64,000 nt of DNA from Gemmatimonadota bacterium (GCA_022827345.1 JAJDTB010000007.1:1-64000); one strand, 5' to 3'. Shown: positions 18,272-59,484, counted from the first letter of the stretch. Translations and numbers: made by a program. Notes: generated by a model not told the origin, from the letters alone.

Positions 18272-19167
18272 CGCCTCCCCCCGTGCATGAGTTCTTCGAG
18301 TGCGGCCCAGTCGCCGGCCTCGATGGTCCGCCGGATCGCGGCAACCTGCCGCTCGACTGCGCGGAGGGCCGCCGCGTCGTCTTCGGCCGCGGCCTCCAGC
18401 AGCGGGCGCCAAACGGCCGGGCTGGACCCGGCGAGCCGCGTCATGTCGCGTCCCCCGGGGCCGAGCTGGCCGGAGGCGATGCCCCGACTTTGCAGGACCT
18501 CGGCCAGCGCGCTCGCGAGCAGCTGCGGAAGGTGACTCGCCCACGCCATCATGCGGTCGTGCTCCGCGCCGGAGATGACGCGAGGCCGGCCGCCCAGCGC
18601 CGTCCAGAAGGCGGCCGCCCGCTCCACCGCACCGGCGGAATCGCTGCGGTCGAGGTCGCGCGCGGCGGATGCCGGCCCCTGCCGTGCGCGATCCGGGGGA
18701 CAAATCCAGACATCGGCACCGTCGAAGAGGTCCCCCCGGGCCGCGGCATAGCCGGAGCGCTGCGAGCCGCACATGGGGTGGACACCGACGAAGACACCCG
18801 GGCCCGGCGCGCCACCGCCGGCCGATGACGACTCCGCCTTCGCGGCCGCCGCCAGCACCGGACGCTTCAAGCTCGCCACATCCATGGCGAGCGCCGCCCG
18901 GCGCCAAATCGCAGCCGTCTCGCCGACCAATCCGACAGTCGCGTCCAGCGGCGCGGCGAAGACCACGACGCCACCGCCAACCCGGGCATCGCCCAGCCGC
19001 GCGACCACCTCGACCCCGTCGCCCGCAGCCATCGCGGCACACTCCGGGTCGGGGTCGATCCCGCACACCGGAACCCGCGGCATCCGCTCCAGCACCGCCC
19101 GGGCCACCGATCCGCCCATGACGCCCAGTCCCACCACCGTAACGCTGCGCACACCCGCCTCAGTCAC
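18250..19167 (-). CDS. tyrA: Prephenate dehydrogenase
   Basis: 305 residues from GTG 19167, overlapping the RNase Z stop by 8 nt; GTG 19152 is an alternative. The N-terminal Rossmann motif is VTVVGLGVMGGSVARAVLER. The catalytic region has the family's HPMCGSQRSGYAAARGDLF and a downstream helical dimerisation domain (EHDRMMAWASHLPQLLASAL). It oxidatively decarboxylates prephenate towards tyrosine. No ACT domain follows, so feedback control by tyrosine is not evident. It ends 22 nt inside the AroA-Cmk gene, placing two aromatic-amino-acid steps on one coupled transcript. Confidence 0.9.
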   Translation of the reverse strand: MTEAGVRSVTVVGLGVMGGSVARAVLERMPRVPVCGIDPDPECAAMAAGDGVEVVARLGDARVGGGVVVFAAPLDATVGLVGETAAIWRRAALAMDVASLKRPVLAAAAKAESSSAGGGAPGPGVFVGVHPMCGSQRSGYAAARGDLFDGADVWICPPDRARQGPASAARDLDRSDSAGAVERAAAFWTALGGRPRVISGAEHDRMMAWASHLPQLLASALAEVLQSRGIASGQLGPGGRDMTRLAGSSPAVWRPLLEAAAEDDAAALRAVERQVAAIRRTIEAGDWAALEELMHGGRRWTGERD

Positions 19168-20231: not shown

Positions 20232-21566
20232 ATGAACCGCAAGGTCAAGAAGGGCAATGCGCGCCGCACGGCGCCGAATCGACGCGATTTCCTCGGATCG
20301 GCGGCGGCCATGCTGGGCGCCTCCCAGCTGCCCGCCTTCAACTCGCACGCCACGGCCATCGCGGACGACCTCAGTCGTCACCGGGGAACCCCGGCCGACA
20401 TCGCCCGGGACGAGAACTACTGGTCCGAAGTGGCCCGCGCCTTCACGGTCGACCGCACCCTGGTCAACCTGAACAACGGCGGCGTCAGCCCCTCGCCCAC
20501 CTTCGTGCAGGAGGCGATGAAGCGGCACCTGGACTTCTCCAACAAGGCGCCCACCTACACCATGTGGCAGATCCTCGGGCCGCAGCGCGAGGGCGTGCGG
20601 GCACGGATGGCGCGGGAATGGGGCGTCGACACCGAAGAGGTGGCCTTCACGCGCAACGCCTCCGAGGGCCTGCAGATCTGCCAGTTCGGCTACGACCTCC
20701 AGAAGGGCGACGAAGTCCTCACGACGACCCAGGACTACGGCCGCATGCTCACCACCTTCCGGCAGCGGGAACGCCGTGAGGGCATCGTCATGCGGCAGAT
20801 CAAGGTCCCCGTGCCCGCCGAGGACAACGCCGAGGTCGTGCGCCGCTTCGAGGAGGGCATCACGGACAGGACCCGCCTCATCCTCATGTGCCACATGATC
20901 AACCTGACCGGCCAGATCCTGCCGGTGAAGGAGATCGTGGCCATGGCGCGCAACTACGACATCCCGGTCATCGTGGACGGCGCCCACGCGCTGGCGCACT
21001 TCCCCTTCAAGCTCTCCGAGCTGGAGTGCGACAACTACGCGACCAGCCTCCACAAGTGGCTCTTCGCGCCGCACGGCACCGGCCTGCTCTACGTTCGCAA
21101 GGAGGAGGTCCCCAACATCTGGCCCCTGATGGCCGCGCCCGACGGAATGACCGACAACATCCGCAAGTACGAGGAGATCGGCACGCATCCCGCGGCCAAC
21201 TACCTGGCGATCGGCGAGGCGCTGACCTTCCACCAGGGGATAGGGGCAGAGCGCAAGGCCGAACGGCTGATCTACCTCAGGGACCACTGGGCCAACCGCC
21301 TCCTCGAGAACGACCGCGTGAGCCTCAATACGAGCCGGAAGCCCGGCTTCGCCTGCGGGATCGGGAACGTGCACGTCGACGGCCTGGACACCGCCGCCCT
21401 CAGCACCTGGCTCTGGAACGAGCACCGGATCATCAACGTGTCGATCGGCCACGAGGAGTGCACCGGGCTCAGGATCTCCCCCAGCGTGTACACGACGCTC
21501 GAGGAGATCGACCGGTTCAGCGAGGCGATGGAGTGGGCGATCAAGCACGGACTACCGACGGCCTGA
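20232..21566 (+). CDS. Tat-exported class V aminotransferase (isopenicillin-N epimerase-like)
   Basis: 444 residues from ATG 20232, preceded by GGGAGGACAG. The N-terminus carries a twin-arginine signal (NRRDFLGSAAAMLGASQLPA), so the PLP enzyme is exported folded to the periplasm. The class V fold is clear: VNLNNGGVSPSPTFVQEAMK, FTRNASEGLQICQFGYDLQK, DYDIP-like IPVIVDGAHALAHFPFK (Asp contacts the pyridine nitrogen) and the Schiff-base Lys in YATSLHKWLFAPHGTGLLYV. Relatives are annotated as isopenicillin-N epimerase or cysteine desulfurase-like proteins and usually have unknown substrates. The neighbouring genes are envelope proteins and give no pathway. It is probably monocistronic or leads into the CopCD gene 80 nt downstream. 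Confidence 0.85.
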   Translation: MNRKVKKGNARRTAPNRRDFLGSAAAMLGASQLPAFNSHATAIADDLSRHRGTPADIARDENYWSEVARAFTVDRTLVNLNNGGVSPSPTFVQEAMKRHLDFSNKAPTYTMWQILGPQREGVRARMAREWGVDTEEVAFTRNASEGLQICQFGYDLQKGDEVLTTTQDYGRMLTTFRQRERREGIVMRQIKVPVPAEDNAEVVRRFEEGITDRTRLILMCHMINLTGQILPVKEIVAMARNYDIPVIVDGAHALAHFPFKLSELECDNYATSLHKWLFAPHGTGLLYVRKEEVPNIWPLMAAPDGMTDNIRKYEEIGTHPAANYLAIGEALTFHQGIGAERKAERLIYLRDHWANRLLENDRVSLNTSRKPGFACGIGNVHVDGLDTAALSTWLWNEHRIINVSIGHEECTGLRISPSVYTTLEEIDRFSEAMEWAIKHGLPTA

Positions 21567-21646
21567 CGGTGTTGCGGGCGATTCTCCGGCGGCACCGGAA
21601 TCGCATCGCCATCAGACGCGAGACCGGCCCGGGCCGCGTGCTTGTC

Positions 21647-23074
21647 ATGCGGCGCACAGCGGGAGGCATGGCCGTGCTCCTGGCGCTCGCATCGGTGGCC
21701 GGAGCGATCCGGCTTCACACCGAACTGGAAGACTCCGATCCTGCAGCTGACGCCGTCCTGACCACGCCCCCGGCCGCGGTCACCCTCGCGTATACGACCG
21801 AGGTGCAACTGGCGCTCAGCTCGGTCACGGTCACCTCCGCATCCGCGGACGGCGTCCCGGCTTCGGCCGGCGAGCTCGCCTACCTCTTCGCCGACCGGCA
21901 CGATGTCCTTGTCCTTCCCCTGACGGCGCCGCTGTCTTCAGGCTCCTACATCGTCTCCTGGCGAACGGCGGGACCGGATGGGCACCCGATCTCGGGCGAG
22001 TTCGGGTTCCGGGTGGATCTGCCGGTGGAGGAGGAGATTGAGGAGGTTGAGGAGGGCGAGGAGGGCGACGTGACGGGCGCGGGTGACCCCCCGGTTGCGG
22101 GCGGCACGGAGCGGGACCCGGCGGCCCGCGAGGACGCACTGGCCGCGGAGGCGGGGCCGTCCGTCGACATCCTGGCGCTGGCGACCCGGTTCGCATTCTA
22201 CGCGGCGATCGTGGGGATCCTCGGGGCGATCGCCTTCAGGGCGCTGGTCCTGAGGGCCGTCGGGGGCGGTCTGCCCGAGACGGCGGCCGGGGCGGTTGCC
22301 GAGGGGGTCTGGCGGATCGCCGCGATCGCCGCCGGGCTGCTGCTGCTCACGCTGCCGCTCCGTCTCTGGTTCCAGGCCGTGTCCTTCTTTCCGGAAGACC
22401 CCTTGGGCAATCTCGGCGCTGTGACCGCGGGGACCGCATGGAGCACCGGCTGGTGGGTGCAGGTTACCGCGGGTGCGGTCGTTCTGCTCGGTGTCGCGCT
22501 CGCGCGTCCCGGACAGCATCGGGTTGCCAACGGGTGGAGGCTGGCGGCGCTTGGAGCCCTGGCCCTGCCCATCGTGCCGCTCGTATCCGGACACGCCTGG
22601 GCGGACAGTCCGCGCGCCCTGTCATCGGTCGCGACGTACCTGCACGTCGTGGCCGCCAGTGCGTGGGTGGGAGGCCTGTGCTGCCTGGTATGTGCGGGGC
22701 TCCCGGCGCTGCGCGATTCAGAGCGACCGGCCGACGGCGTTCCAGCTCCGCTGCCCGCGCTGGTCGGAGCTTTCTCCCGGCTCGCCCTCGCCGCCGCCGG
22801 CCTCCTGGTCGTCTCGGGCGCGGCCAAGGCCTGGCTCCACATCGGTGCGCCCTCGGACCTGTGGACCACGGCCTGGGGGCGGTCACTGCTCGTCAAGGAC
22901 GCCGTCGTGCTGGGCGTGATGGCGCTCGGCTTCTACAACTGGCGCGTGGTGCGCCCGGCGCTGGCGAGTGACCCCGGACCGGACCGCCTCAAGCGTTCAG
23001 CAACCCTCGAGCTGCTGCTGGGGGCAGCCGCGGTGATCGCGACATCCTTCCTGGTGGTACAACCCCTGAACTGA
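21647..23074 (+). CDS. CopC-CopD fusion, copper resistance/transport membrane protein
   Basis: 475 residues from ATG 21647; GTG 21638 is possible. After a signal peptide (MAVLLALASVAGA) comes a CopC domain (LHTELEDSDPAADAVLTTPP to TAGPDGHPISGEFGFRV, residues about 18-125) with His candidates for copper at both ends. A Glu-rich linker of about 40 residues follows, then a CopD part with about eight hydrophobic helices, including LVSGHAWADSPRALSSVATY, LHVVAASAWVGGL and AKAWLHIGAPSDLWTTAWGR. The CopD His residues in SGHAW and YLHVVAASAW are the usual metal-pathway residues. Fusions of this type import or buffer periplasmic copper. No copper sensor or other cop gene is nearby. Confidence 0.88.
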   Translation: MRRTAGGMAVLLALASVAGAIRLHTELEDSDPAADAVLTTPPAAVTLAYTTEVQLALSSVTVTSASADGVPASAGELAYLFADRHDVLVLPLTAPLSSGSYIVSWRTAGPDGHPISGEFGFRVDLPVEEEIEEVEEGEEGDVTGAGDPPVAGGTERDPAAREDALAAEAGPSVDILALATRFAFYAAIVGILGAIAFRALVLRAVGGGLPETAAGAVAEGVWRIAAIAAGLLLLTLPLRLWFQAVSFFPEDPLGNLGAVTAGTAWSTGWWVQVTAGAVVLLGVALARPGQHRVANGWRLAALGALALPIVPLVSGHAWADSPRALSSVATYLHVVAASAWVGGLCCLVCAGLPALRDSERPADGVPAPLPALVGAFSRLALAAAGLLVVSGAAKAWLHIGAPSDLWTTAWGRSLLVKDAVVLGVMALGFYNWRVVRPALASDPGPDRLKRSATLELLLGAAAVIATSFLVVQPLN

Positions 23075-30433: not shown

Positions 30434-31828
30434 ATGCCTGCTGTCCTCCACTCGCCCATTGCACTCCGGTTCGCCTGCGCCGCACTCCTTCTTGCCGGCG
30501 CGCCCACCCTCCACGCCCAGGCGCAAGACCGGATCTGGGGACGCGTCTTCACCGGCGACGGCGACGAGTACGAGGGATTTCTCGAATTCGGCAGGGGGCA
30601 GAGCGCGGCAAGCTGGGCAGACGTGCTCGTGGGCAGCCGCGAGATATCCGACGACAACTACAACGCCTGGCTCCTGGCCGTGCACGACGGCAAGCCGGCG
30701 GTGCGCACCGTGGAGGTCAGGGACTACCGGGTCTCCTGGGAGGAGCGGTACCGGGATTTCGCGACCACGACCCGCACGGCGATCCGATTCGGCCACCTCG
30801 CTGCGCTCGTGCAGGACGACGAAGGCGAGATGCAGGTGGTGCGGCGGGGCGCCGCGGGCGAGGTGCCGCTGGATGTGCCCGCTTCGAGGCAAGGAAACAT
30901 GACGCTGTCGCCCGGCGGCGTACGCACATCGTCGACGACCGGAGGGCTGAGGGCACGCATCACCGTCGACGACCCGGGCGAAGGGCGGGTCGTGGTCTCC
31001 GGACGCGACATCACGCGGATCGAGTTCGGCGCTGCTCCGTCCGGCGCCGCACCCGAGGCCGTCCGGGTCCACGGGTCGGTCGAGGACCGCTTCGGACGCA
31101 CCTTCACCGGGTTCATCTCCTGGAACGGCGCTCCGGTCCTCGAGTCGGCCCGATTTCCCGGGCGGGACGACGACGGCGATCTGCGGCGCTTCTCCCTCGG
31201 CGAGATCAGCACCGTGGAATCCCGCTTCGGCGGGGCATGGGTGACTCTGGCGTCCGGAGAGGGATTCGACCTCTACCGCCCGCTCGGTTCGCGCTACCGG
31301 CAGTCCGACATTCGCTGGTACCGCCGCACGATCCGCATCGCCGATCCCGGACTCGGAATCGTGGAGGTCGACTGGGACGACTTGCGCGCGCTTCGCCTGC
31401 ACCCCCCCTCCCCCGGGGCCGGCTACGACGACTTCGGAGCAACCGGCCCGTTGTACGGTGTCGTCGCAGGCCGGTCCGGCGAAGAGTTCGAGGGCTGGAT
31501 CCGGTGGGACGCCGACGAGGAATGGGCCTGGGACTATCTGGACGGAACCTCCGACAACGTCGAGCTCGACGTGGAGTTCGGGAACATCCGGCGGATCACC
31601 CGCACCGACGACGGGTTTGCGCGCGTCACGCTCCTGGACGGGCGCGACTACGAGCTCGCCGACTCGAACGACGTTGACGGAGACAACCGGGGGATCTTCG
31701 TGTTCCCGAACGCGGGCCCCACGGCACGGGAGGGAGTCGGGCAGGAGGGGACCGACTGGCACTACATCGCGTGGGAGGACTTCCGCGAGGCGCGCTTCCA
31801 GCGGGCGCCGGAGGGGTCGGGGTCATGA
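30434..31828 (+). CDS. Exported protein with three copies of an unrecognised repeat
   Basis: 464 residues from ATG 30434; earlier in-frame codons are Arg/Pro-rich. Signal peptide FACAALLLAGAPTLHAQA. Three blocks align without gaps: GRVFTGDGDEYEGFLEF (near residue 36), GSVEDRFGRTFTGFISW (near 215) and GVVAGRSGEEFEGWIRW (near 340), i.e. GxV, a Gly five residues on, then an aromatic, then xG(F/W)(I/L)x(F/W). Each is followed some 40 residues later by a strand pair such as GNIRRITRTDDGFARVTLLD or GEISTVESRFGGAWVTLASG. The repeats look like small SH3-like beta-barrels. The stop overlaps the next gene's ATG, coupling it to an Omp85-like barrel. The function is unknown. Confidence 0.8.
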   Translation: MPAVLHSPIALRFACAALLLAGAPTLHAQAQDRIWGRVFTGDGDEYEGFLEFGRGQSAASWADVLVGSREISDDNYNAWLLAVHDGKPAVRTVEVRDYRVSWEERYRDFATTTRTAIRFGHLAALVQDDEGEMQVVRRGAAGEVPLDVPASRQGNMTLSPGGVRTSSTTGGLRARITVDDPGEGRVVVSGRDITRIEFGAAPSGAAPEAVRVHGSVEDRFGRTFTGFISWNGAPVLESARFPGRDDDGDLRRFSLGEISTVESRFGGAWVTLASGEGFDLYRPLGSRYRQSDIRWYRRTIRIADPGLGIVEVDWDDLRALRLHPPSPGAGYDDFGATGPLYGVVAGRSGEEFEGWIRWDADEEWAWDYLDGTSDNVELDVEFGNIRRITRTDDGFARVTLLDGRDYELADSNDVDGDNRGIFVFPNAGPTAREGVGQEGTDWHYIAWEDFREARFQRAPEGSGS

Positions 31829-34203
31829 GCGCCGCCAACTGCAGGCACTCACTGGCCGCGGCCATCGTCGTTGTGGCATCGGTCGCCGGAGCCGCACCGC
31901 ACGACGCCACCGCGCAGACCCGCTTCGCCCCCGACGCCTTCCTGGATCCGGTCGCCCGTCAGCTCTATACGGCGGCCTTCGACGGCTGGACCGCGCTGGA
32001 CGAGTCGGTCGTGCGCTACACGGCCAGGATCGACCAGCGCATCGCCGCCGCCATCCGCGCGCCGCTGCGGGACCGCGTCCTCTACCACAGCGAGACGGCG
32101 GTCCGCACCTTCTGGGAGCGCGACTACGACGCCGTGGTGCAGGTGCTCGGCTCCCGTTCCGAGTACCCGGGACGCGCCATCGCGATGCGCGAAGGCGACC
32201 TGGACTGGCTCGAGGACCTCCCCTTCGACGGGCCCTTCGAGCCCGGCAACGACCGTCTGTTCCTGGGAATGGACGACGAGGCTTTCACCGCGGACACGGA
32301 AGACAACGAGTTCGCGCTCATTCATCCCCTGGCCTCCGGCGCCGACACGATCTACCGCTTCCAGAGCGGAGATACGATGACGCTGTCTTTCCCCGACGGA
32401 CGCCGCCTGGAGGCGATTCAGCTCGAAGTCCTCCCCCGGGAGGCCGCGCCCCAGCGAATCAGCGGAATCCTCTGGATCGACCGCGACACAGGTGCGCTGG
32501 TCCGGGCCGCCTACCGCATGAGCCGGGAGTTCGACGCCATGCGCGACGTCCCCGACCTGCAGGAGGAGGACGAAGCCGGCACGTTCAGGTTCGTTCCCGG
32601 CCTCTTCAAGCCGTGGACCTTCAGCCTGAACGTCGTCTCGGTGGACTACCTGCTCTGGGACTTCAAGGCGTGGCTGCCCCGCAGCATGCGCATCGAGGGC
32701 GAGGCGAGGGCGGGGGTCCTCAGGTTCCCCGTCTCCATGGACATGGCCTACCAGGTCGAGTCGGTGGTCCTGCAGGAGGATGTGGAGGTGGATGAGGAGG
32801 GCGACCCGGTCGTCCCGGGCGACGAGACCGCGCCGGGAACGGTGACAACCGCGCGGGACGGGATGAGAGCGGTCCACTTCGCGTCGCGCGCCGAAGCCAT
32901 GGCCTTCATCGCCTCGCTGCTCTCCGAGGACGACCGGATCCCCTACGAGCTCATGGACGAAGCCGAGACCCCGGCCGCGGACCGCGAGTCGCTGCTGATC
33001 GTCCCGGAAGACCGCAGTCTGGTGGCCGAGAGCCCCCACCTGCCCCCGCCGGTCTGGGACGGCGCGCCCGGGTTCACCGACCCCGATGAGCTGGCCGAGT
33101 ATATCGGGGACCTGGCCGACCTGCCCGCGCCGCCGGTCCAGGTGATTCCCTGGAACTTCAACTGGGGTTGGGCGCGCCAGGATCTCATCCGCTACAACCG
33201 GGTCGAAGGACCGGCCCTGGGCGGGCACTTCGACTGGGATCTGGGAGACCGGTACACCCTCGGGGCGTCCGGATTCTTCGGGTTTGCCGACCTCCGCCCC
33301 AAGGTGCGGCTCGATCTGGAACGCTCGAACGTGCTGCGCCGCCTGACGCTCGGCGCCTACCACGAACTGCACTCCGTCGATCCCCGGGCCGGACACCTCG
33401 GATTCGGAAACTCCTTCGAGGCGCTGTTCTTCGGCCGCGACAACGGGGAGTACTTCCGTGCCACAGGCGCCGACTTCACCTGGCGTCCTCCCGAGGGGAG
33501 CAGGGAGTCCTTCCTTTTCCGCGCATACGCCGAGCGACACGCGGCCGTGGAGCGGAACATCAGCTTCGCCCTCTTCCGCGTCTTCGACGGGGATTGGGAC
33601 TTTCGGCGGAACATCACGGCCGACGAGGCCGACGAAGTGGGCGCGGAGGTGCGTATCTCGCCCTGGTGGGGACATGACCCCCTCAAAGCCCAGTTCGGGC
33701 TGGAGTTTCACGGGCGCGGCGCGACCTGGCGGCCCGTCGCCGGCGGCCCGGGCGGGCACGGCGCCGAAGCGCGAAACGACTACGTGCAGGCGAGCGCCAC
33801 GGCCCGGGCGATCATCCCCGTGCGGGGCGAGGGCTGGGACGGGTGGCGCCTGGGGCTCGAGGCGGCGGGGGGCAACACCTGGGGAGCCGCTCCGGTCCAG
33901 CGGTCATGGTTCCTCGGTGCGACGTCCACGCTGCGCGGCTTCCCCGCCTCGGTGGTCTCGGGCCCGTCGTTCCTGCGCGGGCGCGTCGAGGTCAACCGGA
34001 TCTTCCACGGAGTGGGCGCGAGTCTCTTCACCGACACCGGCTGGGCCGGCGAGGCAAGCGATTTCACCGCGGGCGACCTGCTCTACGGCGTCGGCATCGG
34101 CGGCAGCATTCTCGACGGACTCATCCGCCTGGACCTGTCGCGGGGCCTGAACGGTCCTCACAAGGGCTTCCGCCTCAATCTGTACGTGGACGGCATCCTG
34201 TAG
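31825..34203 (+). CDS. Omp85-like outer-membrane beta-barrel with periplasmic N-terminal region
   Basis: 792 residues from ATG 31825, overlapping the upstream stop (ATGA). Signal peptide AAIVVVASVAGAAPHDATA. Residues about 30-430 are periplasmic and beta-rich, with an outer-membrane lipoprotein-sorting-like flavour in GILWIDRDTGALVRAAYRMS. The C-terminal 350 residues alternate like beta-barrel strands, contain the Omp85 motif (V/L)RG(F/Y) in STLRGFPASVVSG, and end GFRLNLYVDGIL. FTDTGWAG and GIGGSILDGLIRLDLSRGL match late D15/BamA-family strands. No POTRA domains are evident, so it is not BamA itself. A role in moving or inserting the co-encoded repeat protein is inferred from the coupling. 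Confidence 0.75.
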   Translation: MSAANCRHSLAAAIVVVASVAGAAPHDATAQTRFAPDAFLDPVARQLYTAAFDGWTALDESVVRYTARIDQRIAAAIRAPLRDRVLYHSETAVRTFWERDYDAVVQVLGSRSEYPGRAIAMREGDLDWLEDLPFDGPFEPGNDRLFLGMDDEAFTADTEDNEFALIHPLASGADTIYRFQSGDTMTLSFPDGRRLEAIQLEVLPREAAPQRISGILWIDRDTGALVRAAYRMSREFDAMRDVPDLQEEDEAGTFRFVPGLFKPWTFSLNVVSVDYLLWDFKAWLPRSMRIEGEARAGVLRFPVSMDMAYQVESVVLQEDVEVDEEGDPVVPGDETAPGTVTTARDGMRAVHFASRAEAMAFIASLLSEDDRIPYELMDEAETPAADRESLLIVPEDRSLVAESPHLPPPVWDGAPGFTDPDELAEYIGDLADLPAPPVQVIPWNFNWGWARQDLIRYNRVEGPALGGHFDWDLGDRYTLGASGFFGFADLRPKVRLDLERSNVLRRLTLGAYHELHSVDPRAGHLGFGNSFEALFFGRDNGEYFRATGADFTWRPPEGSRESFLFRAYAERHAAVERNISFALFRVFDGDWDFRRNITADEADEVGAEVRISPWWGHDPLKAQFGLEFHGRGATWRPVAGGPGGHGAEARNDYVQASATARAIIPVRGEGWDGWRLGLEAAGGNTWGAAPVQRSWFLGATSTLRGFPASVVSGPSFLRGRVEVNRIFHGVGASLFTDTGWAGEASDFTAGDLLYGVGIGGSILDGLIRLDLSRGLNGPHKGFRLNLYVDGIL

Positions 34204-35744: not shown

Positions 35745-36659
35745 CTACAGGATCGTGGCGCCGAGCGCCGAGGCCACCAGCCCGACGCCGAGCAGCGCCG
35801 TCTCGTTGCGGTCGTCGAGGACGGGATTGAGTTCGACAAGCTCGAGACTGAGCAGCCGGCCCGAGCGGAACGCCTTCTCGCAGACCAGGTGGCCCTCCCT
35901 GTAGGTGAGGCCTCCCCGGACCGGCGTGCCGACTCCGGGGGCGATCCCGGGATCGAGCGCGTCGAGGTCGAGGGAAAGGTGGAATCCGCACGTCCCGTCG
36001 CCGGCGCGTTCCAGCGCCTCGTCCATGCACGCGGCCACGCCCCTTTCGTCGACCTCCGACATCGTGAACACCCGCACCCCCAGCTCCCGAATGAGCGCCT
36101 TCTCGCCGGCGTCCAGATCGCGCGCGCCCAGTACGCTCACATTTTCGGGGCGGACGCAGGCCCTTCCGCGGGTCAGGCGCGGCTCGCCCAATCCCAGCAG
36201 CACCGCCAGAGGCATCCCGTGGATGTTGCCGGTGGGCGATGTGTGGGGCTGGTTCAGGTCGGTATGCGCGTCGACCCAGATGACCCCGATGGACATCCCC
36301 TGCTCGAGGTAGTGGTCGGCCACCGCGCCCACCGACCCGATGGCGAGCGAGTGATCGCCGCCGAGGACGAGGGGCAGGCATCCCCGGTCCAGCCCCTTCC
36401 GCACCGCCGCCCGTGTCCGCCCCGTCACATCGTAAATCTCGTTCAGGAAGGGGAGCACGTCCTCTCCCGACTCGGTGGTCTCCAGCCCGCCGGCCGTGAT
36501 GGTGCCGATTTCGGAAACGGTGTGGCCGATCTTCTCGATCTCTTCGCGGATCCCCGCGATGCGCAGGGCCGACGGGCCCATGTCCACACCGCGGCGGCCC
36601 GCACCCAGGTCGATGGAGACGGAGAGCAGCGAGATGTCTCGTCGGGAAGCTTGTGGCAT
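35745..36659 (-). CDS. rocF: Arginase
   Basis: 304 residues from ATG 36659. Manganese-ligand motifs of the ureohydrolase family are all present: LGGDHSLAIGSVGAV, VIWVDAHTDLNQPHTSPTGN (DAHxD) and HLSLDLDALDPGIAPGVGTP (SxDxDxxDPxxxPGxGTP). IHGMPLAVLLG is the usual Gly-His-rich loop. The length and the N-terminal SIDLGAGRRGVDMGPSALRI are those of arginase rather than agmatinase. It splits arginine to ornithine and urea. No urease or ornithine catabolic gene is next to it. It is divergent from the first TolB-amidohydrolase gene; a promoter-like CTGACA and TATGTT pair lies in the shared 180-bp gap. Confidence 0.93.
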   Translation of the reverse strand: MPQASRRDISLLSVSIDLGAGRRGVDMGPSALRIAGIREEIEKIGHTVSEIGTITAGGLETTESGEDVLPFLNEIYDVTGRTRAAVRKGLDRGCLPLVLGGDHSLAIGSVGAVADHYLEQGMSIGVIWVDAHTDLNQPHTSPTGNIHGMPLAVLLGLGEPRLTRGRACVRPENVSVLGARDLDAGEKALIRELGVRVFTMSEVDERGVAACMDEALERAGDGTCGFHLSLDLDALDPGIAPGVGTPVRGGLTYREGHLVCEKAFRSGRLLSLELVELNPVLDDRNETALLGVGLVASALGATIL

Positions 36660-36841
36660 GTCTCGAATGCGTCCCCCGCAGGCGGGGCGGTCTGGTCCGT
36701 TGGGGCCGTTGGTGTGCTTGGTGGCGTGCGCCGGCTGACACTACTATTCACCCCGAACGTATGTTAGAGGTTCGGCTGGTCAATTCCCCGGCCGTTTCTC
36801 GTTCGCGCAAATCCCACTGCAATCCGGAACGGAGTCGGCGC

Positions 36842-39800
36842 ATGCGCTCTCTCAAACGCAGCCGCTGGGCGGTCACACTGGTGCTGCTCACCCCCCTCGC
36901 CGCCCAGGCCCAGGAGGCCGAGCCGGACCCCGATCGCGGCCTCCCCCTGGAGCCCGCCCGCTGGGCACGGTTCACCACCGACGAGGGCACCTGGATCTCG
37001 CTCGATGTAAGTCCGGACGGACAGACGATCGTCTTCGACATGCTCGGCGACCTGTACTCGATGCCGATCACCGGTGGCGACGCCACGCGCCTCACCAGCG
37101 GGATGGGCTACGACATGCAGCCGCGCTTCAGCCCTGACGGCGAGCGGATCGTGTTCGTGTCCGACCGGAGCGGCGACCAGAACGTCTGGCTCGTCCCTGC
37201 GGCGGGCGGCGACCCCACGCAGGTCAGCAAGGGGGTCGGGAGCGGCTTCCTGTCGCCCGAATGGATGCCCGACGGGAACTACGTCGTCGTGTCGAGGTCG
37301 CGCCAGTTCTTCGGGCTCGAAAAGCTCTGGCTGTACCACGTGGACGGCGGCACCGGGATCGAGATGGTGGGCGGCCCGGGCGGCCAGCGGATGATGGGCG
37401 CGGCCGTCGACGCCGAAGGGCGGTACGTCTGGTACGCCCAGCGCCAGGGAACATGGCAGTACAACGCCATCTTCCCGCAGTTCCAGCTGTGGGTCTACGA
37501 CCGCCAGTCCGGTACGCGCACCCCGATGACGAACCGGTACGGCTCCGCGTTCCGGCCCGCGCTGTCGCCCGACGGCACGATGCTGGCCTACGGCAGCCGC
37601 GACGACGCCGACACGGGAATCCGTCTGCGCGACCTCGCCTCGGGGATGGAGCGCTGGCTGGCCTACCCGGTCCAGCGTGACGACATGGAGTCGACCGCGA
37701 CCATGGACGTGCTCCCCGGCTACTCCTTCACGCCGGAGTCCGACGCGCTGGTCATGTCCTACGGCGGCCGGATCTGGCGCGTGCCGGTGGACGGCAGCGA
37801 TCCCGCCGAGATCCCCTTCACTGTCGAGGCAGAGATCGGGATCGGTCCCGAGGTCGAGTTCGAGTACCCGATCGAGGACACGCCGACCTTCATGGTCAAG
37901 CAGATCCGGTATCCGCGCGCCTCTCCCGACGGGAGCCGCGTCGCCTTCACCGCCCTCGACCGCGTGTACGTCGCGGACCTCCCGGACGGGACGCCCAGGC
38001 GGCTGACGAGCGACGAAGTGGGTGAACACCGTCCGGTCTGGTCGCCCGATGGGCGCTACGTGGCATACGTGACCTGGGACGACGACAGCGGCGAGGGCCA
38101 CATCCGGCGCGTGGCGGCGGAAGGCGGCACGGCGGTTACCCTCACGACGGTGCCCGCGTACTACCGCGACCTCGTGTACTCGCCCGACGGCGGGCGCATC
38201 GTCGGCGTGCGGTCTCCCAGGCGCGTCGTGCAGGAGGCCGTCGATCCCTTCTTCAGCACGGCCGGCTCCGAGTTCGTCTGGATCCCGGCCGACGGCGGCG
38301 AGGTGACGGTCATCGGCCCCACGGCGGGACGCAGATCGCCCCACTTCACCGAGGACCCCGACCGCATCTACTACTACGGAACCGCGCGGGCGGATGCCGT
38401 CCCGGGCTCCCCCGCTCCGCCCCCTCCGACCACCGCACTGTCCTCGGCTCGCTGGGACGACACCGACAGGAAACGGCATCTCCAGGTCACGAGGCGGGCC
38501 GATCTGTCCGCGGGTGGCGTGCCCATCGGCTACAAGCGCTCGGAGACGTCCGACCTCGTGATGCCGGCGGACTTCGACGACGACGAGCCGCGCGAACTGA
38601 TCCTGCGGTTCATCTCGGGCTCGGTCGAGATGGCGCCGCGGGGCGATCTCGCGCTGGCGCAGGTGGGAGACGACCTGTATGCCGTCACGGTGCCCGATCT
38701 GGGTGCCGCGCTGCCCACGGTGGACGTGGTCAAGCCCGACTCGGCCGCGGTGCCCGTGTGGAAGCTGAACGAACTCGGCGTCGAGTTCCCGGCGTGGGGT
38801 GCGGACGGCCGCACCGTGCACTGGTCGCTCGGCAACGCGCTGTTCACCTACGACCTGGACGCCGCCGCCGCCGACCCCGACTACGAGCCCGCCGAACAGC
38901 AGTTCGCGGTTACGGCGGAGCGCGACATCCCGCGGGGGACGGTCGTTCTGCGCGGCGCGCGGGCGATCACCATGAACGGCGACGAGATCGTCCAGAACGC
39001 CGACATCGTGGTGACCGACAACCGCATCGTCTCGGTGTCGGCGGGGCCCGGGGACGTGCCCGAGGGCGCGACCGTGGTCGATGTCGCGGGCAAGACAGTC
39101 GTTCCCGGCTTCGTGGACACGCATGCGCACATGTGGAATCTCTGGGGCCTCCACTGGGCACGCCCGTGGATCTACACGGCGAACCTGGCCTATGGCGTGA
39201 CGACGACGCGGGATCCGCAGACGGCGACGACCGACGTCCTCTCCTACGAGGACATGGTGCGCGCCGGGAAGATGGTCGGTCCGCGCGTCTATTCGACCGG
39301 CCCGGGCGTCTTCGGCCAGGCCTTCGTCAGGAGCTACGAGCACGCGGTCGAAGTGCTCACCAAGTACAGCCGCTACTACGACACCAAGACCTTCAAGATG
39401 TACATGTCCGGCAACCGCAGGCAGCGCCAGTGGCTGATCATGGCCGCGCGCGATCTCGAACTCATGCCCACCACCGAAGGAGGGCTGGACTACCGGCTCA
39501 ACATGACCCACGCGATCGACGGCTATCCCGGAGTCGAGCACTCCATGCCCATCATCCCGGCATATGGCGACGTCGTCGAACTCTTCGCGACCTCGGGCAC
39601 GGTGAATTCGCCCACGCTGCTCGTCTCCTACGGCGGGCCCTGGGCGGAGAACTACTTCTACACCCGCGAGGACATCTTCGGAGACGAGAAGCTCACGCAT
39701 TTCACCCCCAAGCGTGAGCTCGACACGAAGGCGCGGCGCCTGCAGACGACCGGCCCCGGACCGGGCGGCTGGTTCATGGAGGACGAATACGCGTTCCCGA

Positions 39801-40216
39801 AACACGCCGCCTGGCTGACGCGACTGGTGGAGAACGGCGGGAAGACCGGCGTCGGCAGCCACGGACAGCTGCAGGGGCTGGGCTTTCACTGGGAGCTGTG
39901 GGCGATGCAGAGCGGCGGCATGGACGAGCACGACGCGCTGCGGGCCGCCACGATCATGGGTGCCGAGGCGATCGGACTGGGCCGCGACCTGGGGTCCATC
40001 GAGCCCGGCAAGCTGGCCGACCTGGTGATCCTCGACGCCAACCCCCTCGACAACATCCGCAACAGCAACACGGTGCATCAGGTGATGATGAACGGACGGC
40101 TGTACGACGGCGACACCCTCGATGAAGTATGGCCGAGACAGCGACCGGCACCGGATGAACCCTGGCGAAACACCGCGCCCAATGTGAACGCCGGGATCCC
40201 GGGAGGTGACAAATGA
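36842..40216 (+). CDS. Exported TolB-propeller/amidohydrolase, paralog 1
   Basis: 1124 residues from ATG 36842, with ACGGAGT 8 nt upstream. Signal peptide AVTLVLLTPLAAQAQ. Residues about 40-690 are a large beta-propeller of TolB/WD40-like (PD40) blades, with DVSPDGQTIVFDMLGDLYSM, QPRFSPDGERIVFVSDRSGD and later copies. From about 705 is an amidohydrolase: GTVVLRGARAITMNGDEI, metal site VVPGFVDTHAHMWNLWGL (HxH), a Lys in TKTFKMYMSGNRRQRQW, His in PGVEHSMP and GVGSHGQLQG, and a C-terminal GSIEPGKLADLVILDANPLD. The propeller joins the hydrolase without a spacer. Relatives are annotated as Tol-Pal-like or dipeptidase-like, and the substrate is unknown. The stop overlaps paralog 2 (ATGA). Confidence 0.88.
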   Translation: MRSLKRSRWAVTLVLLTPLAAQAQEAEPDPDRGLPLEPARWARFTTDEGTWISLDVSPDGQTIVFDMLGDLYSMPITGGDATRLTSGMGYDMQPRFSPDGERIVFVSDRSGDQNVWLVPAAGGDPTQVSKGVGSGFLSPEWMPDGNYVVVSRSRQFFGLEKLWLYHVDGGTGIEMVGGPGGQRMMGAAVDAEGRYVWYAQRQGTWQYNAIFPQFQLWVYDRQSGTRTPMTNRYGSAFRPALSPDGTMLAYGSRDDADTGIRLRDLASGMERWLAYPVQRDDMESTATMDVLPGYSFTPESDALVMSYGGRIWRVPVDGSDPAEIPFTVEAEIGIGPEVEFEYPIEDTPTFMVKQIRYPRASPDGSRVAFTALDRVYVADLPDGTPRRLTSDEVGEHRPVWSPDGRYVAYVTWDDDSGEGHIRRVAAEGGTAVTLTTVPAYYRDLVYSPDGGRIVGVRSPRRVVQEAVDPFFSTAGSEFVWIPADGGEVTVIGPTAGRRSPHFTEDPDRIYYYGTARADAVPGSPAPPPPTTALSSARWDDTDRKRHLQVTRRADLSAGGVPIGYKRSETSDLVMPADFDDDEPRELILRFISGSVEMAPRGDLALAQVGDDLYAVTVPDLGAALPTVDVVKPDSAAVPVWKLNELGVEFPAWGADGRTVHWSLGNALFTYDLDAAAADPDYEPAEQQFAVTAERDIPRGTVVLRGARAITMNGDEIVQNADIVVTDNRIVSVSAGPGDVPEGATVVDVAGKTVVPGFVDTHAHMWNLWGLHWARPWIYTANLAYGVTTTRDPQTATTDVLSYEDMVRAGKMVGPRVYSTGPGVFGQAFVRSYEHAVEVLTKYSRYYDTKTFKMYMSGNRRQRQWLIMAARDLELMPTTEGGLDYRLNMTHAIDGYPGVEHSMPIIPAYGDVVELFATSGTVNSPTLLVSYGGPWAENYFYTREDIFGDEKLTHFTPKRELDTKARRLQTTGPGPGGWFMEDEYAFPKHAAWLTRLVENGGKTGVGSHGQLQGLGFHWELWAMQSGGMDEHDALRAATIMGAEAIGLGRDLGSIEPGKLADLVILDANPLDNIRNSNTVHQVMMNGRLYDGDTLDEVWPRQRPAPDEPWRNTAPNVNAGIPGGDK

Positions 40217-43200
40217 GCCCCGCCCGCAACAGCACCCGGAACGAGATCCGCGGCAAGTTCCGCCGATTCGCCGCGCCCACGCTGGCGCTGCTCATACTCG
40301 CGGTCATGTACGCGCCCCTGGTGGCACAGCCCCCCAGACCTGGAGGACCAGGCCGGAACCCCCTTCCCCTCCGCGGCGCCCGCACCGCCGAGTTCACCGC
40401 GACCGAAGGCACCTGGATCTCGCTCGACGTCAGCCCCGATGGCCAGACCATCGTCTTCGACCTGCTCGGCGAGCTCTACACCATGCCGATCACCGGCGGC
40501 GAGGCGTCCCCGCTTCTGACCGGTATGGCCTTCGAGACGCAGCCGCGCTTCAGCCCCGACGGCGAGTCGGTGGCGTTCATCTCGGACAGGAGCGGTGGCG
40601 ACAACCTGTGGACCATGCGGCTCGACAAGACGGACACGACGCAGGTTTCGCGTGGCAACAACAACCTCTTCCTGTCGCCCGAGTGGGCGCCCGACGGCGA
40701 GTTCATCGTGGTCAGCCGGTCGGGCGGCCTGGGCGGCGCGGCGAATCTGTATATGTACCATGCGGAGCGCTCGTCGCCGATCACCATCCCCGGCGCTCCC
40801 ACCTCGCCGATCTTAGCGTCCCTGTTCGGAGGCATCAAGCGCATCGGCGCCGCTTTCAGTCCCGACGGACGGCACATCTGGTACGCGCAGTCGTTCGGCG
40901 ACTGGGAGTACAACGCCCGTCTTCCCCGCTACCAGGTGTACCGGTACGATCGCGAAACCGGCACCAGTACCGTGATGACCAGCCGGTACGGTTCAGGGAT
41001 GCGCCCCGCGATCTCGCCCGACGGCGAGTGGCTGGTCTACGCAACCCGCTACAACGCCGACACCGGGCTCCGGAAGCGGAACCTGACGACCGGCGACGAG
41101 GAGTGGCTGGCCTATCCGGTGCAGCGCGACGAGCAGGAATCGCGCGCGCCGATCGACGTGTACCCGGGCTACGCCTTCCTCCCGGACGGTTCCGCAATCG
41201 TGGTCTCGTACGGCGGCAAGATCTGGAACGTCCCGATGGACGGCAGCGAGGCCACGGAGATTCCCTTCGAGGTCGAGGTAGAGCTGAGCATCGGGCCGTC
41301 GGTCGAGTTCGACTACCAGATCGACACGACCGCGATGGTGACCGCCAGCCAGATCCGCAACCCCGTCGTGTCGCCCGGTGGCGACCGCGTCGCGTTCACC
41401 GCATTCGACCGGCTGTGGGTGCGCGATCTGCCCGAGGGGGACGCCACGCGCCTCACCGAAGCGGACGTGGGCGAGTTCCACCCGCAGTGGTCGCCGGACG
41501 GCACATCGATCGCCTACGTCACCTGGGACGACACCGACGGCGGACACATCATGAGGGTGCCGGCGGCCGGCGGCGCACCTGTCCAGCTCACCGGTACCGC
41601 GGCCATGTACTACAACGTCGCCTGGTCGCCCGACGGCGAGCGTATCGTCGCGTCGCGCGGCGCCGCGCGCGACCTGATGGAGGCGTCGGGGCTGTTCTTC
41701 GGGCCGATGGGCGCCGAGTTCGTCTGGGTCCCGGCGGCCGCCGCCGAGCCCGCGGAAGCCATGGTGATCTCACCGACCGGGCTACGGGACGTCGCCCACT
41801 TCGCATCGGACGATCCCGACCGGATCTACGCCTACAGCCCGGCGGAGGGCCTGGTGTCGTTTCGCTGGGACGGCACCGACGTCGAGCGCCACCTGGTGGT
41901 GCGCGGGCGCCAGGGCATCCCGGGCATCGCGAATCCGCACCCGGACGAATGGGAATACCTGCCGAGGCGGGTCTATCCCTGGCGCAAGGCTCCCGATCCC
42001 ACGGATCTCGATCCACCGGCCGAGCCGGGGCTGCCTCAGCCCGCCGGCCTCATCGTCCTCTCTCCGGAGGGCGATCGCGCCTTCGTCCAGTTCGGCCAGG
42101 ACATCTTCATCGTCGATCTGGCAGAGGTCGGAGCCACGCCGCCCAACATCATGCTCACCAACCTGGGCGCTTCACCCGTCCCGGTGCGCAAGCTCACCGA
42201 CGTCGGCGGCGAATTCCCTGCGTGGGCGCCCGACGGCTCGGCGCTCCATTGGGCCATGGGCAACGTTCTCTTCACGTATGACCTCGATCACGTGGAAGCC
42301 GAGGAGGCCGAGGAAGAGGAGACTGCGCACGCACGCGCTCTGATCCGCGCCCGCGCCATGGCCATTTCGGACACGCTGAGCGACAAGCGCGCCGAAGCGG
42401 ACAGCCTGGAGAACGCGGACGAAGAGGTCCCCGAGGAGTTGGATGACGAGATCACGCGGCTGGTCGCCGACTCCGTGCAGGTCGTGGCCGACTCGCTCAT
42501 GGCGCGCGCCGACTCGATCCGCGAGGCGGCGGAGGAAGTGGCAGCCAAGGCCAGCGCGGTCCGCGACGGCGACAAGGAGGTCCTGGCCGACACGACCGAC
42601 ACCTACGAAGCGCACGAGCGCAAGATCGAGGTCGAGTTGCCGCGCGACATCCCCCGCGGCCTGGTCGCCCTGCGCGGAGGCCGCATCATCACGATGGCGG
42701 ACAATCCGTCCGACACCACCGGGGCGCCCCATGTCATCGAAGACGGGGTGGTTCTCGTCAGGGACAACAGGATCGTCGAGGTCGGCGTCGCCGATTCGGT
42801 CGAGATCCCCGACAGCGCCCAGGTGATCGACGTCGCCGGCAAGACGCTGGTCCCCGGCTACGTCGACACGCATTACCACTCCATGTGGCTCGTGCCGGAG
42901 ATCCATCCACAGGAGGTCTGGCAGTACCTGGCGACCCTGTCCTACGGAGTGACCACGACGCGCGACCCGCAGACCGCCGTCACGGACATCCTCAGTTACA
43001 CCGACCGCGTTCTGACCGGCGGGATGACCGGCCCGCGCATCTACTCGACGGGGCCCGGCGTCTTCAGCGGCGAGAACATCCGCAACGCCGACCACGCCAA
43101 GACCATCCTGCGGCGCTATTCGGAGTACTACGACACCAAGACGCTCAAGATGTACATGAGCGGGAACCGCCAGCAGCGCCAGTGGATCATCCAGGCCGCG

Positions 43201-43974
43201 CGCGAACTCGAGCTGATGCCCACCACCGAGGGCGGACTGGACTTCAAGATCGACATCACCCACGCGATCGACGGATACCCCGGGATCGAGCACAACCTCC
43301 CGATCGCACCGATCTACTCGGACGTCGTCGAACTCTTCAAGGAATCCGAGACGACCAGCACCCCCACCCTGCTCGTGTCGTACGGCGGCCCGTGGGCGGA
43401 GAACTACTTCTACACCACCGAGGACGTGCACGACGATCCCAAGCTGAACACCTTCGTGCCGCGCTCGAACATCGACACCCGGACACGGCGGCGCGGCGCC
43501 GGCGCCGGAGGCAGTCCCGGGCCGGTGGGCTGGTTCCTCGAGGAAGAGTACTTCTTCCCCCGCCACGGCGAGTTCGTGAAGGACATGCTCGAGGCCGGGG
43601 CCCGCATGGGCGTGGGCAGCCATGGACAGCTCCAGGGCCTCGCGTATCACTGGGAGCTGTGGGCCATGGCGGCCGGCGACGCGTCGAGGCACGACATGCT
43701 GCGGGCGGCGACCATCCTGGGTGCCGAGGCGATCGGCTTCGGCAATCAGCTCGGCAGCATCGAAAAGGACAAGTTCGCCGACATCGTGATCCTGAACTCG
43801 AACCCGCTCGACGACCTCCGCAACACGGTCGACATCCGGTATGTGATGAAGGACGGCCGCCTCTACGACGGCATGACCCTCGACGAGGTGTACCCCGAGG
43901 AGCGCACGCTGGAGCGGAGGAGGCCCGCCGAGACGGACCCGGCGGGCACCGCGGCAGGTATCAGGCGGAACTGA
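40213..43974 (+). CDS. Exported TolB-propeller/amidohydrolase, paralog 2, with coiled linker
   Basis: 1253 residues from ATG 40213, overlapping paralog 1. Signal anchor ALLILAVMYAPLVAQ. The propeller (about 50-690) opens with the same TEGTWISLDVSPDGQTIVFD blade. Between propeller and hydrolase is an Ala/Glu/Asp-rich segment of about 115 residues with heptad-like ADSV, ADSL and ADSI repeats, predicted coiled coil, absent from paralog 1. The amidohydrolase from about 810 has VPGYVDTHYHSMWLVPE (HxH), KTLKMYMSGNRQQRQW, PGIEHNLP and GVGSHGQLQGLAYHWELWAM, ending SIEKDKFADIVILNSNPLDD. Tandem duplication is the simplest origin. It is co-translated with paralog 1, so the two may form a hetero-complex. 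Confidence 0.88.
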   Translation: MSPARNSTRNEIRGKFRRFAAPTLALLILAVMYAPLVAQPPRPGGPGRNPLPLRGARTAEFTATEGTWISLDVSPDGQTIVFDLLGELYTMPITGGEASPLLTGMAFETQPRFSPDGESVAFISDRSGGDNLWTMRLDKTDTTQVSRGNNNLFLSPEWAPDGEFIVVSRSGGLGGAANLYMYHAERSSPITIPGAPTSPILASLFGGIKRIGAAFSPDGRHIWYAQSFGDWEYNARLPRYQVYRYDRETGTSTVMTSRYGSGMRPAISPDGEWLVYATRYNADTGLRKRNLTTGDEEWLAYPVQRDEQESRAPIDVYPGYAFLPDGSAIVVSYGGKIWNVPMDGSEATEIPFEVEVELSIGPSVEFDYQIDTTAMVTASQIRNPVVSPGGDRVAFTAFDRLWVRDLPEGDATRLTEADVGEFHPQWSPDGTSIAYVTWDDTDGGHIMRVPAAGGAPVQLTGTAAMYYNVAWSPDGERIVASRGAARDLMEASGLFFGPMGAEFVWVPAAAAEPAEAMVISPTGLRDVAHFASDDPDRIYAYSPAEGLVSFRWDGTDVERHLVVRGRQGIPGIANPHPDEWEYLPRRVYPWRKAPDPTDLDPPAEPGLPQPAGLIVLSPEGDRAFVQFGQDIFIVDLAEVGATPPNIMLTNLGASPVPVRKLTDVGGEFPAWAPDGSALHWAMGNVLFTYDLDHVEAEEAEEEETAHARALIRARAMAISDTLSDKRAEADSLENADEEVPEELDDEITRLVADSVQVVADSLMARADSIREAAEEVAAKASAVRDGDKEVLADTTDTYEAHERKIEVELPRDIPRGLVALRGGRIITMADNPSDTTGAPHVIEDGVVLVRDNRIVEVGVADSVEIPDSAQVIDVAGKTLVPGYVDTHYHSMWLVPEIHPQEVWQYLATLSYGVTTTRDPQTAVTDILSYTDRVLTGGMTGPRIYSTGPGVFSGENIRNADHAKTILRRYSEYYDTKTLKMYMSGNRQQRQWIIQAARELELMPTTEGGLDFKIDITHAIDGYPGIEHNLPIAPIYSDVVELFKESETTSTPTLLVSYGGPWAENYFYTTEDVHDDPKLNTFVPRSNIDTRTRRRGAGAGGSPGPVGWFLEEEYFFPRHGEFVKDMLEAGARMGVGSHGQLQGLAYHWELWAMAAGDASRHDMLRAATILGAEAIGFGNQLGSIEKDKFADIVILNSNPLDDLRNTVDIRYVMKDGRLYDGMTLDEVYPEERTLERRRPAETDPAGTAAGIRRN

Positions 43975-44735: not shown

Positions 44736-47700
44736 TCACCGCCCCCGCTGCTCCCGCACATCCGGCGGCTCGACCCGCCACCACCACTGCGTCGGCAGCG
44801 GCCGCTGCCTGGGCCACACCTCGGTGAGTGTAGCCGCCTCGTATAGCCGCCCGTTCTTCATGACGTAGTCGATGTCGATGCTGTTCTCGAGGTCGTCCAG
44901 GGGGTTCGACCCGAGGACCTGCAGGTCGGCGATCTTGCCGGGCTCGATCGACCCGATGTCGCCCGCCAGCCCGATCGCGTCCGCGCTCATGAGCGTGGCC
45001 ATGCGCAGGGCGTCGTGGTTGCCCATGCCGCCCGACGCCATCATCCACAGCTCCCAGTGGGTGCCAAGACCCTGGACCTCGCCGTGCGAGCCAAGGCCGG
45101 CCTGGCCCCCGGCTTCCATCCACTTCACGATCTGCTCGGCCTGCTGGAAGTGCGGGTACTGATCGTCGCGGTACCAGGTCGTGGTCTTCCACTTGTCGAG
45201 TTCGTCGCGGGGCGTGAAGAACTGGAGACGCTCGACCTCGTCGAGGTTGGTGCGCGTCAGGTAGTACTGGCGCCCGGACGGCCCGCCGTAGGCGACCACC
45301 AGCGTGGGCGTGTAGACCATTCCGCTGAAGGCGCCGAGCTGAACGACATCCCGGTAGAAGGGGCTGATCGGCAGCGAATGCTCGAGGCCCGCGTACCCGT
45401 CCTGCGCCAGCGTCAGGTTCATGGTGAAGTTGGAGCCGCCCTCGGTTGTGGGCGTGAGGCCCTGTTCGCGCGCGGCCATGATCACCCACTGGCGGATCTT
45501 GCGGTCGCCGGCCATGTACTGCTTGATCGTCTTGGTGTTGTAGTGGTCGCTGTAGCGGCGCAGGACGTCGCGGGCCTCGTCGAGGCTCGAGATCTGGTCG
45601 GCGCTGAAGACCCCGGGGCCGGTCGAGTAGAGGCGGGGCCCGATGAAGGCGCCGGTCTCCATGAGGTCGAAGTAGGCGACCGCGTCCTCGGACGAGGTCT
45701 GGGGGTCGCGCTGGGTGGTGACGCCGTAGGCGAGCTGGGCGAGGAACTGCGACACCTGGCCGCGGTGCACGCCCCAGGAAACCCAGGTGTGCGCGTGGAT
45801 GTCGACGAGTCCTGGATAGATCGTCTTGCCGGACATGTCGCGCACGTCGGCGCCGTCGGGGATCTCCACGCTGCCGCTCGCGCCCACCGCGATGATGCGG
45901 TTGTCCCGCACGACGATGTCCCCGCGCGGGATCACCTCGTCGCCGCGCATCGTGATGAGGCGGGCGTTGGTGAGGGCGACCGTGCCGCGCGGCAGGTCCT
46001 TCGCCACGGTGATCTCGACGTCGAAGCGCGCGGCCTCGTAGACGGGGCCGTCGTCTTCGTCGTCATCTGCGTCACGCTCCTCTTCGATGACGTCGACGGT
46101 GTCCGCGGCCTCCTCTTCCGGCGACTCCGCCGCCGCCGACTCCGCCTCCTCCCGCGCCTCTGCGCGCGCCGCCGCCACCGAATCGGCCACCAGCGAGTCG
46201 CTCAGCGCGACGTCGTGCAGGAAGAAGCTGCGCCCGATCGAGTAGTACGCGGCCGATCCGTCGGTGGTCCAGCCCACGAAGTCGCCGCCCACCTTCGTGA
46301 GGCGCCGCGTCGGCACCGACGACCGGGCCGCGACCGAGATCGTCGGCGCCTCGCCCCCCGCCGGCGGCACGGTGATCGTGAACACGTTGCGGTTGGCGCG
46401 CACCACCGCGCGCTTCCCGTCCGGCGAGAGGACCACCTCGTCTGGAGCTCCCCGTGAGCCGGGACCGGGCCGGGCCGGCGCCGTGACCTTGACGATGGTG
46501 CGGATGTCGGTGCCGTCGTAGCGCATCGACAGCAGGCCGTCCTGGCCCGCCCACACATACACGCGATCGGGATCGGGACCGGGGTGGGGCGCGTTCCGCC
46601 CCTCCTGCGTGGCCCCGGATCCCACCCACACGATCCGGCTGGGCTCGCCGCCCTCGGCCGGCAACCACACATACTCGAGCTCGGCGGCGGGATTGTGGCG
46701 GCCGAAGTCCTCCAGCGTGCGCATGCGGTGCATCTTCGAGCCGCGCACCGCCAGGATCCGGGTGCCGTCGCCGTTGTACGCCACCCGGTCGTAGAAGGCC
46801 GACGTGGGCGTGAGCTTCTCGGGCCCGCCCTCGCCGTCCGCGCGGATGCGCCAGATGTCGCCGCCGGCCGAGTCGTTCCATGTCGCGTAGGCGATGTAGA
46901 GGCCGTCCGGCGACCAGGCCGCTCCGTGCTCGACATCGGTCGAAGTGGTGAGGCGGCGCGCGCCCGTGATGACCGGGAAGCCCTCGGTCTGCGTGCCCGC
47001 CGCGTCGGGGATGTCCGCGGTCCACAGCCGGTCGAGCGCCGAGAATACCAGCCGCGCGCCGTCCGGCGAAGGGCGCGCGCCGCGGATCTGCGACACGGTG
47101 AGCAGCGAGTCGTTGATCGGATAGTCGAACATGACGAGCGGCCCCAGATCCTGCTGGACACGGGCCGTGAACGGGATCTCGGAGGCCTCGCCCGAGGGCA
47201 CCTCGACCCGCATGATCTTGCCGCCGTAGAAGGTGATCAGCGCACGCGAGTCGGGCGTCCAGGCACCGCCTGGATAGACATCGCGGTCGCGCATCCCCCC
47301 GCCCTGCGATTCGTCCCGCTGCACGTCCATCACCAGCCAGCTGTCCTCGCCGGTCTCGAGGTCGAGCAGCTTGAGCGCCTCGCGCGCGTCGTACCGCGTC
47401 GCGTACGCCAGCCAGCGCCCGTCGGGGCTGGGCATGGGACGGAAGGCGCCCTCGTGCTCGTGCGTGCGAACCATGACGCGGCCGGTCTCGCGGTTGAGCA
47501 TCCCGATCTGAAAGGCGCCGACCTCACGCGCCGAGCTCTGTTCGGCGGCGGCCGCGAAATGGCCGGGCGGATCCGGATCGAGGTTGTAGGGATCGCGCGC
47601 ACCCACCGGAAAGCCGCCGCCCAGGTTGCCGCGCACGTTCACCCACACGTACCGCGGATCCGGCCCGAAGGCTGCGCCGATGTGCGACGCAGTCCCCCCG

Positions 47701-48308: not shown

Positions 48309-48357
48309 CTCCTCAACCTCCTTTGTGTTGCGCCGCACGGCGCCGAATGCGCCGCCG

Positions 48358-55621: not shown

Positions 55622-59443
<3,822 letters not shown>

Positions 59444-59484
59444 CCTGCGGAAGTTCCAGCCGCCCAGTTGCTCGGGATCCGGCC

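Follow-up and report, generated by a model that had tools for sequence, protein, structure and literature searches.

A three-repeat exported protein encoded in overlap with a POTRA-less Omp85-superfamily barrel in Gemmatimonadota

Results

We found that in one uncultured Gemmatimonadota lineage two almost always overlapping genes encode a protein with three repeats recognised by profile comparison (hereafter REP) and an Omp85-superfamily barrel recognised from its structure model (hereafter BAR), and that the two proteins probably function together. The pair lies in a stretch of 64,000 nucleotides (the window) on contig C64 of a Gemmatimonadota metagenome assembly (G000), and was examined across 249 genomes of the phylum.

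The repeat protein

The REP gene (30434–31828, plus strand) encodes 464 amino acids plus a stop, with orthologues of 95 to 79% identity in genomes G009, G002, G013 and G015. Its N terminus, MPAVLHSPIALRFACAALLLAGAPTLHAQA (30434–30523, plus strand), reads as a Sec-type signal peptide, and a lipobox was looked for in this sequence and not found. The signal region is unconserved in sequence, with 27% identity among homologues, and is similar in kind among the orthologues; the mean identity of REP across 46 paired proteins is 42%. AlphaFold models REP well (pLDDT 82.7, pTM 0.82), as a set of compact beta modules with no beta helix.

A preliminary description of this DNA had reported three motifs that align without gaps. 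These 17-residue motifs start at residues 36, 214 and 342, at equivalent places in the three repeats, and form the top-scoring ungapped triple anywhere in the mature protein, with a summed BLOSUM62 score of 92 that was reached in 0 of 300 shuffles (mean 53.8, s.d. 8.0, maximum 91). The repeats it saw are thus real, but it drew them too narrowly, as whole repeats match one another at E-values of 1e-15 to 1e-28. In profile-profile comparisons built on a 43-member homologue alignment, repeat 1 (residues 33–206; 30530–31051, plus strand), which has about 45 extra residues inserted ahead of its I-R-F-G-H strand, matches repeats 2 and 3 with E-values of 1.8e-17 and 1.6e-15, respectively, while repeat 2 (residues 207–338; 31052–31447, plus strand) matches repeat 3 (residues 339–464; 31448–31825, plus strand) with an E-value of 1.9e-28. 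Repeat 3, with its WDaDE and SNDVxxxNxGI motifs, is the most conserved of the three. By profile comparison, then, the motifs mark three full homologous repeats. Upon dividing the repeats into halves, each half matches its counterparts in the other repeats (E 8.6e-9 to 6.9e-18), whereas first against second halves give an unconvincing match (best E 0.001), so that three repeats, and not six, are established.

In the model, DSSP assigns a strand-HHH-strand pattern at six places. SH3-like small barrels consist of five strands, the fourth and fifth being joined by a 3-10 turn, and the strand-turn-strand topology may hint at an SH3/Sm-like fold for the half-repeats; this reading is suggestive only, because a Foldseek search of the REP model against the PDB returned nothing at an E-value of 1e-3 and the profiles of first and second halves do not match convincingly.

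Searches of the repeats against Pfam, NCBIfam and the PDB found no describing family, in agreement with the earlier remark that no family is known to have this motif, and a sequence search for solved relatives gave nothing significant; as judged from these comparisons, the libraries searched contain no description of the REP repeats. Two candidate identities were rejected. The bacterial PH family bPH_6 matches 23 of the 43 members and exceeds the cut-off in one relative (L069), with matched stretches of 25–41 residues where positions were seen. A 35-residue hairpin of similar pattern in one REP relative resembles the small YgdI/YgdR (DUF903) lipoproteins (Pfam E 0.0023, below the cut-off), and an NCBIfam YgdI/YgdR match occurs in one member (E 6e-4); with one member in each library and the Pfam match below its cut-off, homology was not accepted for the REP family as a whole.

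The barrel protein

The BAR gene (31825–34203, plus strand) encodes 792 amino acids plus a stop. Its protein comprises a signal-peptide-like N terminus ending in PHDATAQ, as read from the sequence (31825–31917, plus strand), an N-terminal domain (residues 38–322; 31936–32790, plus strand) modelled as a long helix followed by about 10 long antiparallel strands, and a C-terminal barrel (residues 441–792; 33145–34200, plus strand) with about 16 strands in the model. The model is of moderate confidence overall (pLDDT 73, pTM 0.66), and its best Foldseek matches are TamA and BamA, at E-values of about 1e-9 (8e-10 at best). Sequence searches of BAR for solved relatives gave nothing significant. The LRG of TLRGFPAS (33931–33939, plus strand), equivalent to the Omp85 loop-6 (V/L)RG(F/Y) motif, is invariant as L703-R704-G705 in 31 barrels; the residue after it is F in the window protein, against a consensus Y. 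The model with its 16-stranded BamA/TamA fold, together with the loop-6 motif, confirms BAR as an Omp85-superfamily barrel, and the partner had rightly been called Omp85-like.

Family libraries recover this relationship weakly. Pfam Omp85 matches 12 of the 31 BAR members (best E 9e-4), and a distant relative, L157, exceeds the Pfam cut-offs for both Omp85 and ShlB. DUF5686 (PF18939) gives a weak, partial match in 22 of the 31 members (best E 7.6e-5); the window protein, with a weak partial match noted for its N-terminal domain, scores 17.5 bits, under the cut-off of 39.2, and a REP partner is absent from the family definition. The likeness of BAR to DUF5686 thus appears very remote, and no mention of DUF5686 was found in the literature searched.

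At least one POTRA domain is usual, though not universal, in the Omp85 superfamily. None was detectable in BAR, whereas nine POTRA matches were found elsewhere in the same genome, and the strand order of the N-terminal domain in the model differs from the beta-alpha-alpha-beta-beta order of POTRA. The genome has two other Omp85 genes (on C10 and C20), each combining an Omp85 barrel with several POTRA domains, so BAR comes on top of the normal machinery. The N-terminal domain and the barrel are equally conserved (60% and 57% mean identity, respectively, across 46 paired proteins), and no solved structure is similar by sequence to the N-terminal 400 residues. A LolA-like N terminus, suggested by strand order, was rejected, since hhalign E-values of 0.02–0.35 were no better than those of unrelated controls, while the positive comparison of LolA with LolA_like gave 3.5e-6.

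Pairing of the two genes

The stop of REP and the start of BAR share an ATGA (31825–31828, plus strand), as the preliminary description had it, and a Shine-Dalgarno-like GGAGGGG for BAR lies within the end of REP (31810–31816, plus strand). Among 46 homologous pairs, 41 overlap by ATGA, GTGA or TTGA, and 29 of the 46 have a Shine-Dalgarno-like motif at the same place.

The survey for the same pair in other genomes, suggested at the outset, bore out the association. REP is present in 40 of the 249 Gemmatimonadota genomes and adjoins BAR in 35 of these 40, as read off match coordinates. The BAR family occurs in 228 of the 249, most of them without a REP gene; set against the 40 genomes with REP, this indicates that REP partners one BAR branch only. 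In about 35 genomes the best barrel match falls below an E-value of 1e-200, and REP adjoins it in all except one (G032). Within the genus, REP orthologues adjoin the BAR gene, and barrel-less REP copies are separate paralogues. Both outcomes named beforehand as counting against the pairing, a known domain in the repeats and a failure of the two genes to co-occur, were looked for, and neither was found.

Since the genomes are related, these counts are not independent events, and we regard the survival of the pair through changed neighbourhoods, together with its joint duplication, as the stronger evidence. REP and BAR remain together far outside the genus, where the other neighbours tested are lost, except in the near relative L123; those kept within the genus and in L123 are a mechanosensitive channel, a beta-lactamase-type hydrolase, ApaG, a small exported protein, an FAA hydrolase, an arginase and a propeller amidohydrolase. 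Two tandem REP-BAR pairs occur in each of the genomes G005, G020 and G011. The tandem copies in L057–L059 form matching clades in the REP and BAR trees, first with first and second with second, which shows that REP and BAR were duplicated together. REP and BAR divergences correlate with r = 0.85, a value expected from shared ancestry alone.

Two irregular cases were observed in the survey. In G004, the REP gene is broken up between two reading frames beside an intact barrel (L110:4505-5878, the same place as L052), reflecting a frameshift or an assembly error. Furthermore, in four sequences labelled Gammaproteobacteria (L133, L135, L136 and L145), REP and BAR group with Gemmatimonadota BD2-11-type sequences (L136 was not included in the trees); these are probably mislabelled genome bins, rather than instances of gene transfer.

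Repeat proteins without a barrel and barrels without a repeat protein

Upon examining REP relatives outside the pair, we found a barrel-less paralogue in the same genome (C51:153309-154373) and others in other genomes. The barrel-less paralogues L061 and L069 and their relatives begin with a hydrophobic stretch, for example NIAVITGSALVAVVATLALVNG, which from its sequence looks like an uncleaved inner-membrane anchor. A plasmid of Rufibacter tibetensis carries the sole Bacteroidota relative found, a three-repeat protein with 29% identity over 95% of the L064 protein, whose gene lies about 16 bp ahead of a histidine kinase gene, followed by a LytTR response regulator. These relatives without a barrel show that REP is not confined to the role of a barrel passenger. 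Probably, the exported REP module is the older element, and a single Gemmatimonadota lineage joined it to an Omp85 barrel.

Additionally, barrels exist without REP. Third barrels lacking a REP of their own occur in the tandem clusters of L055 and L058–L060, and L142–L146 constitute a separate clade of related, REP-less barrels, of which L142–L144 have an endonuclease/exonuclease/phosphatase-like gene upstream. The genes upstream of REP-less barrels are unrelated, and no common alternative partner was found among them. REP is therefore not required by every barrel, since close relatives of BAR do without it. BAR was also searched for on plasmids, and none was found there.

Other genes of the window

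Several other large or fused genes were observed in the window. Three related giants, at 36653–40216 (plus), 40213–43974 (plus) and 44736–48338 (minus), each combine a WD40-like propeller with an amidohydrolase domain, and a 1142-residue protein at 51862–55293 (minus) consists nearly entirely of ankyrin repeats (Pfam Ank_2, E 7e-132). Fusion genes encode EPSP synthase-cytidylate kinase (16223–19066, minus), CopC-CopD (20888–23074, plus) and homocysteine S-methyltransferase-MTHFR (59404–61341, plus).

Discussion

The coupling and co-duplication of the genes lead us to a probable joint function for REP and BAR, which most likely operates within the cell envelope, more so than as a secreted protein with its exporter. 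We give an even chance to a model in which REP and BAR form a single outer-membrane device as its two subunits, with periplasmic REP docking on BAR. In Omp85 topology, the N-terminal domain is on the periplasmic side, and the N-terminal beta domain of BAR would face the periplasm in the same way. REP would be exported by Sec, would then remain in the periplasm, and would dock on the conserved N-terminal domain of BAR, where it would serve in trans for recognition or as a scaffold, as POTRA domains or accessory subunits do in BamA, TamA and FhaC; translational coupling would supply the subunits in proportion. The complex may handle an envelope component, such as a lipid, a lipoprotein or an outer-membrane protein. 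In a more specific and tentative form, which we consider possible but rather doubtful, the two genes encode an outer-membrane machine whose Omp85 barrel, lacking POTRA, receives its periplasmic recognition part in trans from the three-repeat protein. Docking is favoured because the POTRA-less BAR is without the usual recognition part. A periplasmic REP is favoured because the barrel-less paralogues appear to be anchored in the inner membrane and to face the periplasm, and because the N-terminal domain of PlpD, a PL-Omp85 protein, was once held to be a secreted passenger and stays periplasmic (PMC11116518). The counterpoint to docking is that a conserved operon alone does not prove contact between REP and BAR.

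That counterpoint can be carried further, to the reading that the two proteins share an operon without acting on each other; shared regulation can conserve operons, and adjacency is not contact. We hold this to be quite unlikely, as the pair outlasts the reshuffling of its neighbourhood between genera, keeps its start/stop overlap and has been duplicated as a unit. The preliminary description suggested a dedicated passenger and translocator or a two-part surface complex. The overlap of an exported protein gene with an Omp85 barrel gene lends itself to the idea of a passenger and translocator, as do the remote ShlB/FhaC-type Pfam matches in BAR relatives, above the cut-off in L157. BAR would then carry REP across the outer membrane as an unusual translocator in a system resembling two-partner secretion. 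TpsB proteins, however, bind the TPS domain of TpsA through two POTRA domains (PMC5422565), and none is detectable in BAR; REP is small, at 464 residues, is modelled as compact beta modules instead of a beta helix, and matches no TPS family in Pfam or NCBIfam. REP relatives without a neighbouring barrel, and a BAR family mostly without REP, speak against mutual dedication, and we consider this explanation unlikely.

REP could otherwise reach the outside by another route and be held there by BAR as a cell-surface complex, which would suit a protein with a signal peptide and an outer-membrane partner; yet REP has no lipobox, no C-terminal sorting signal was noticed in it, and its paralogues look anchored in the inner membrane, all of which makes this very unlikely. 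The Rufibacter tibetensis relative, adjoining a histidine kinase and then a LytTR regulator, points instead to a periplasmic sensor or regulatory module that reports on or gates BAR and does not move a client, and the fact that some BAR relatives do without REP is consistent with it. This is a single Bacteroidota example, though, and two-component genes are absent among the tested neighbours of the Gemmatimonadota pairs, so that we judge such a role improbable.

Characterised Omp85 proteins usually act through POTRA domains of their own. A POTRA-less Omp85 branch that nearly fills the phylum (228/249 genomes), and that in one lineage recruited a dedicated exported partner, offers a natural test of POTRA function and of how new roles arise on the Omp85 scaffold. 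REP, for its part, is a conserved exported family that extends to the Bacteroidota, for which no database entry and no solved relative were found.

Relative to described systems, the pair with its envelope role as proposed above is a variant on several themes. BAR resembles BamA and TamA of the Omp85 superfamily in its C-terminal barrel fold, its (V/L)RG(F/Y)-type motif and an N-terminal region expected to be periplasmic, and differs in having no detected POTRA domain and a separate repeat-protein partner. As in TpsA/TpsB, one operon makes an exported protein and an Omp85 barrel (PMC5422565), whereas BAR has no POTRA and REP, also found without BAR, has neither a TPS domain nor a beta helix. 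PlpD likewise joins an Omp85 barrel to an unusual N-terminal domain, but unites its patatin domain and POTRA in one chain, with no partner gene. The nearest described idea is the seven-gene BBJ25 cluster of Borrelia, in which a POTRA-less Omp85 barrel is encoded with separate exported proteins and for which delivery of non-polar ligands to the outer membrane has been proposed, without experiment (PMC13078400); the barrel there is accompanied by TPR proteins, a LolA-like protein and an ABC transporter, whereas the partner of BAR is one beta-repeat protein (PMC13078400). Overall, BAR is a known kind of protein, an Omp85 barrel, in a variant form, and for the REP repeat family no description was found in the libraries searched.
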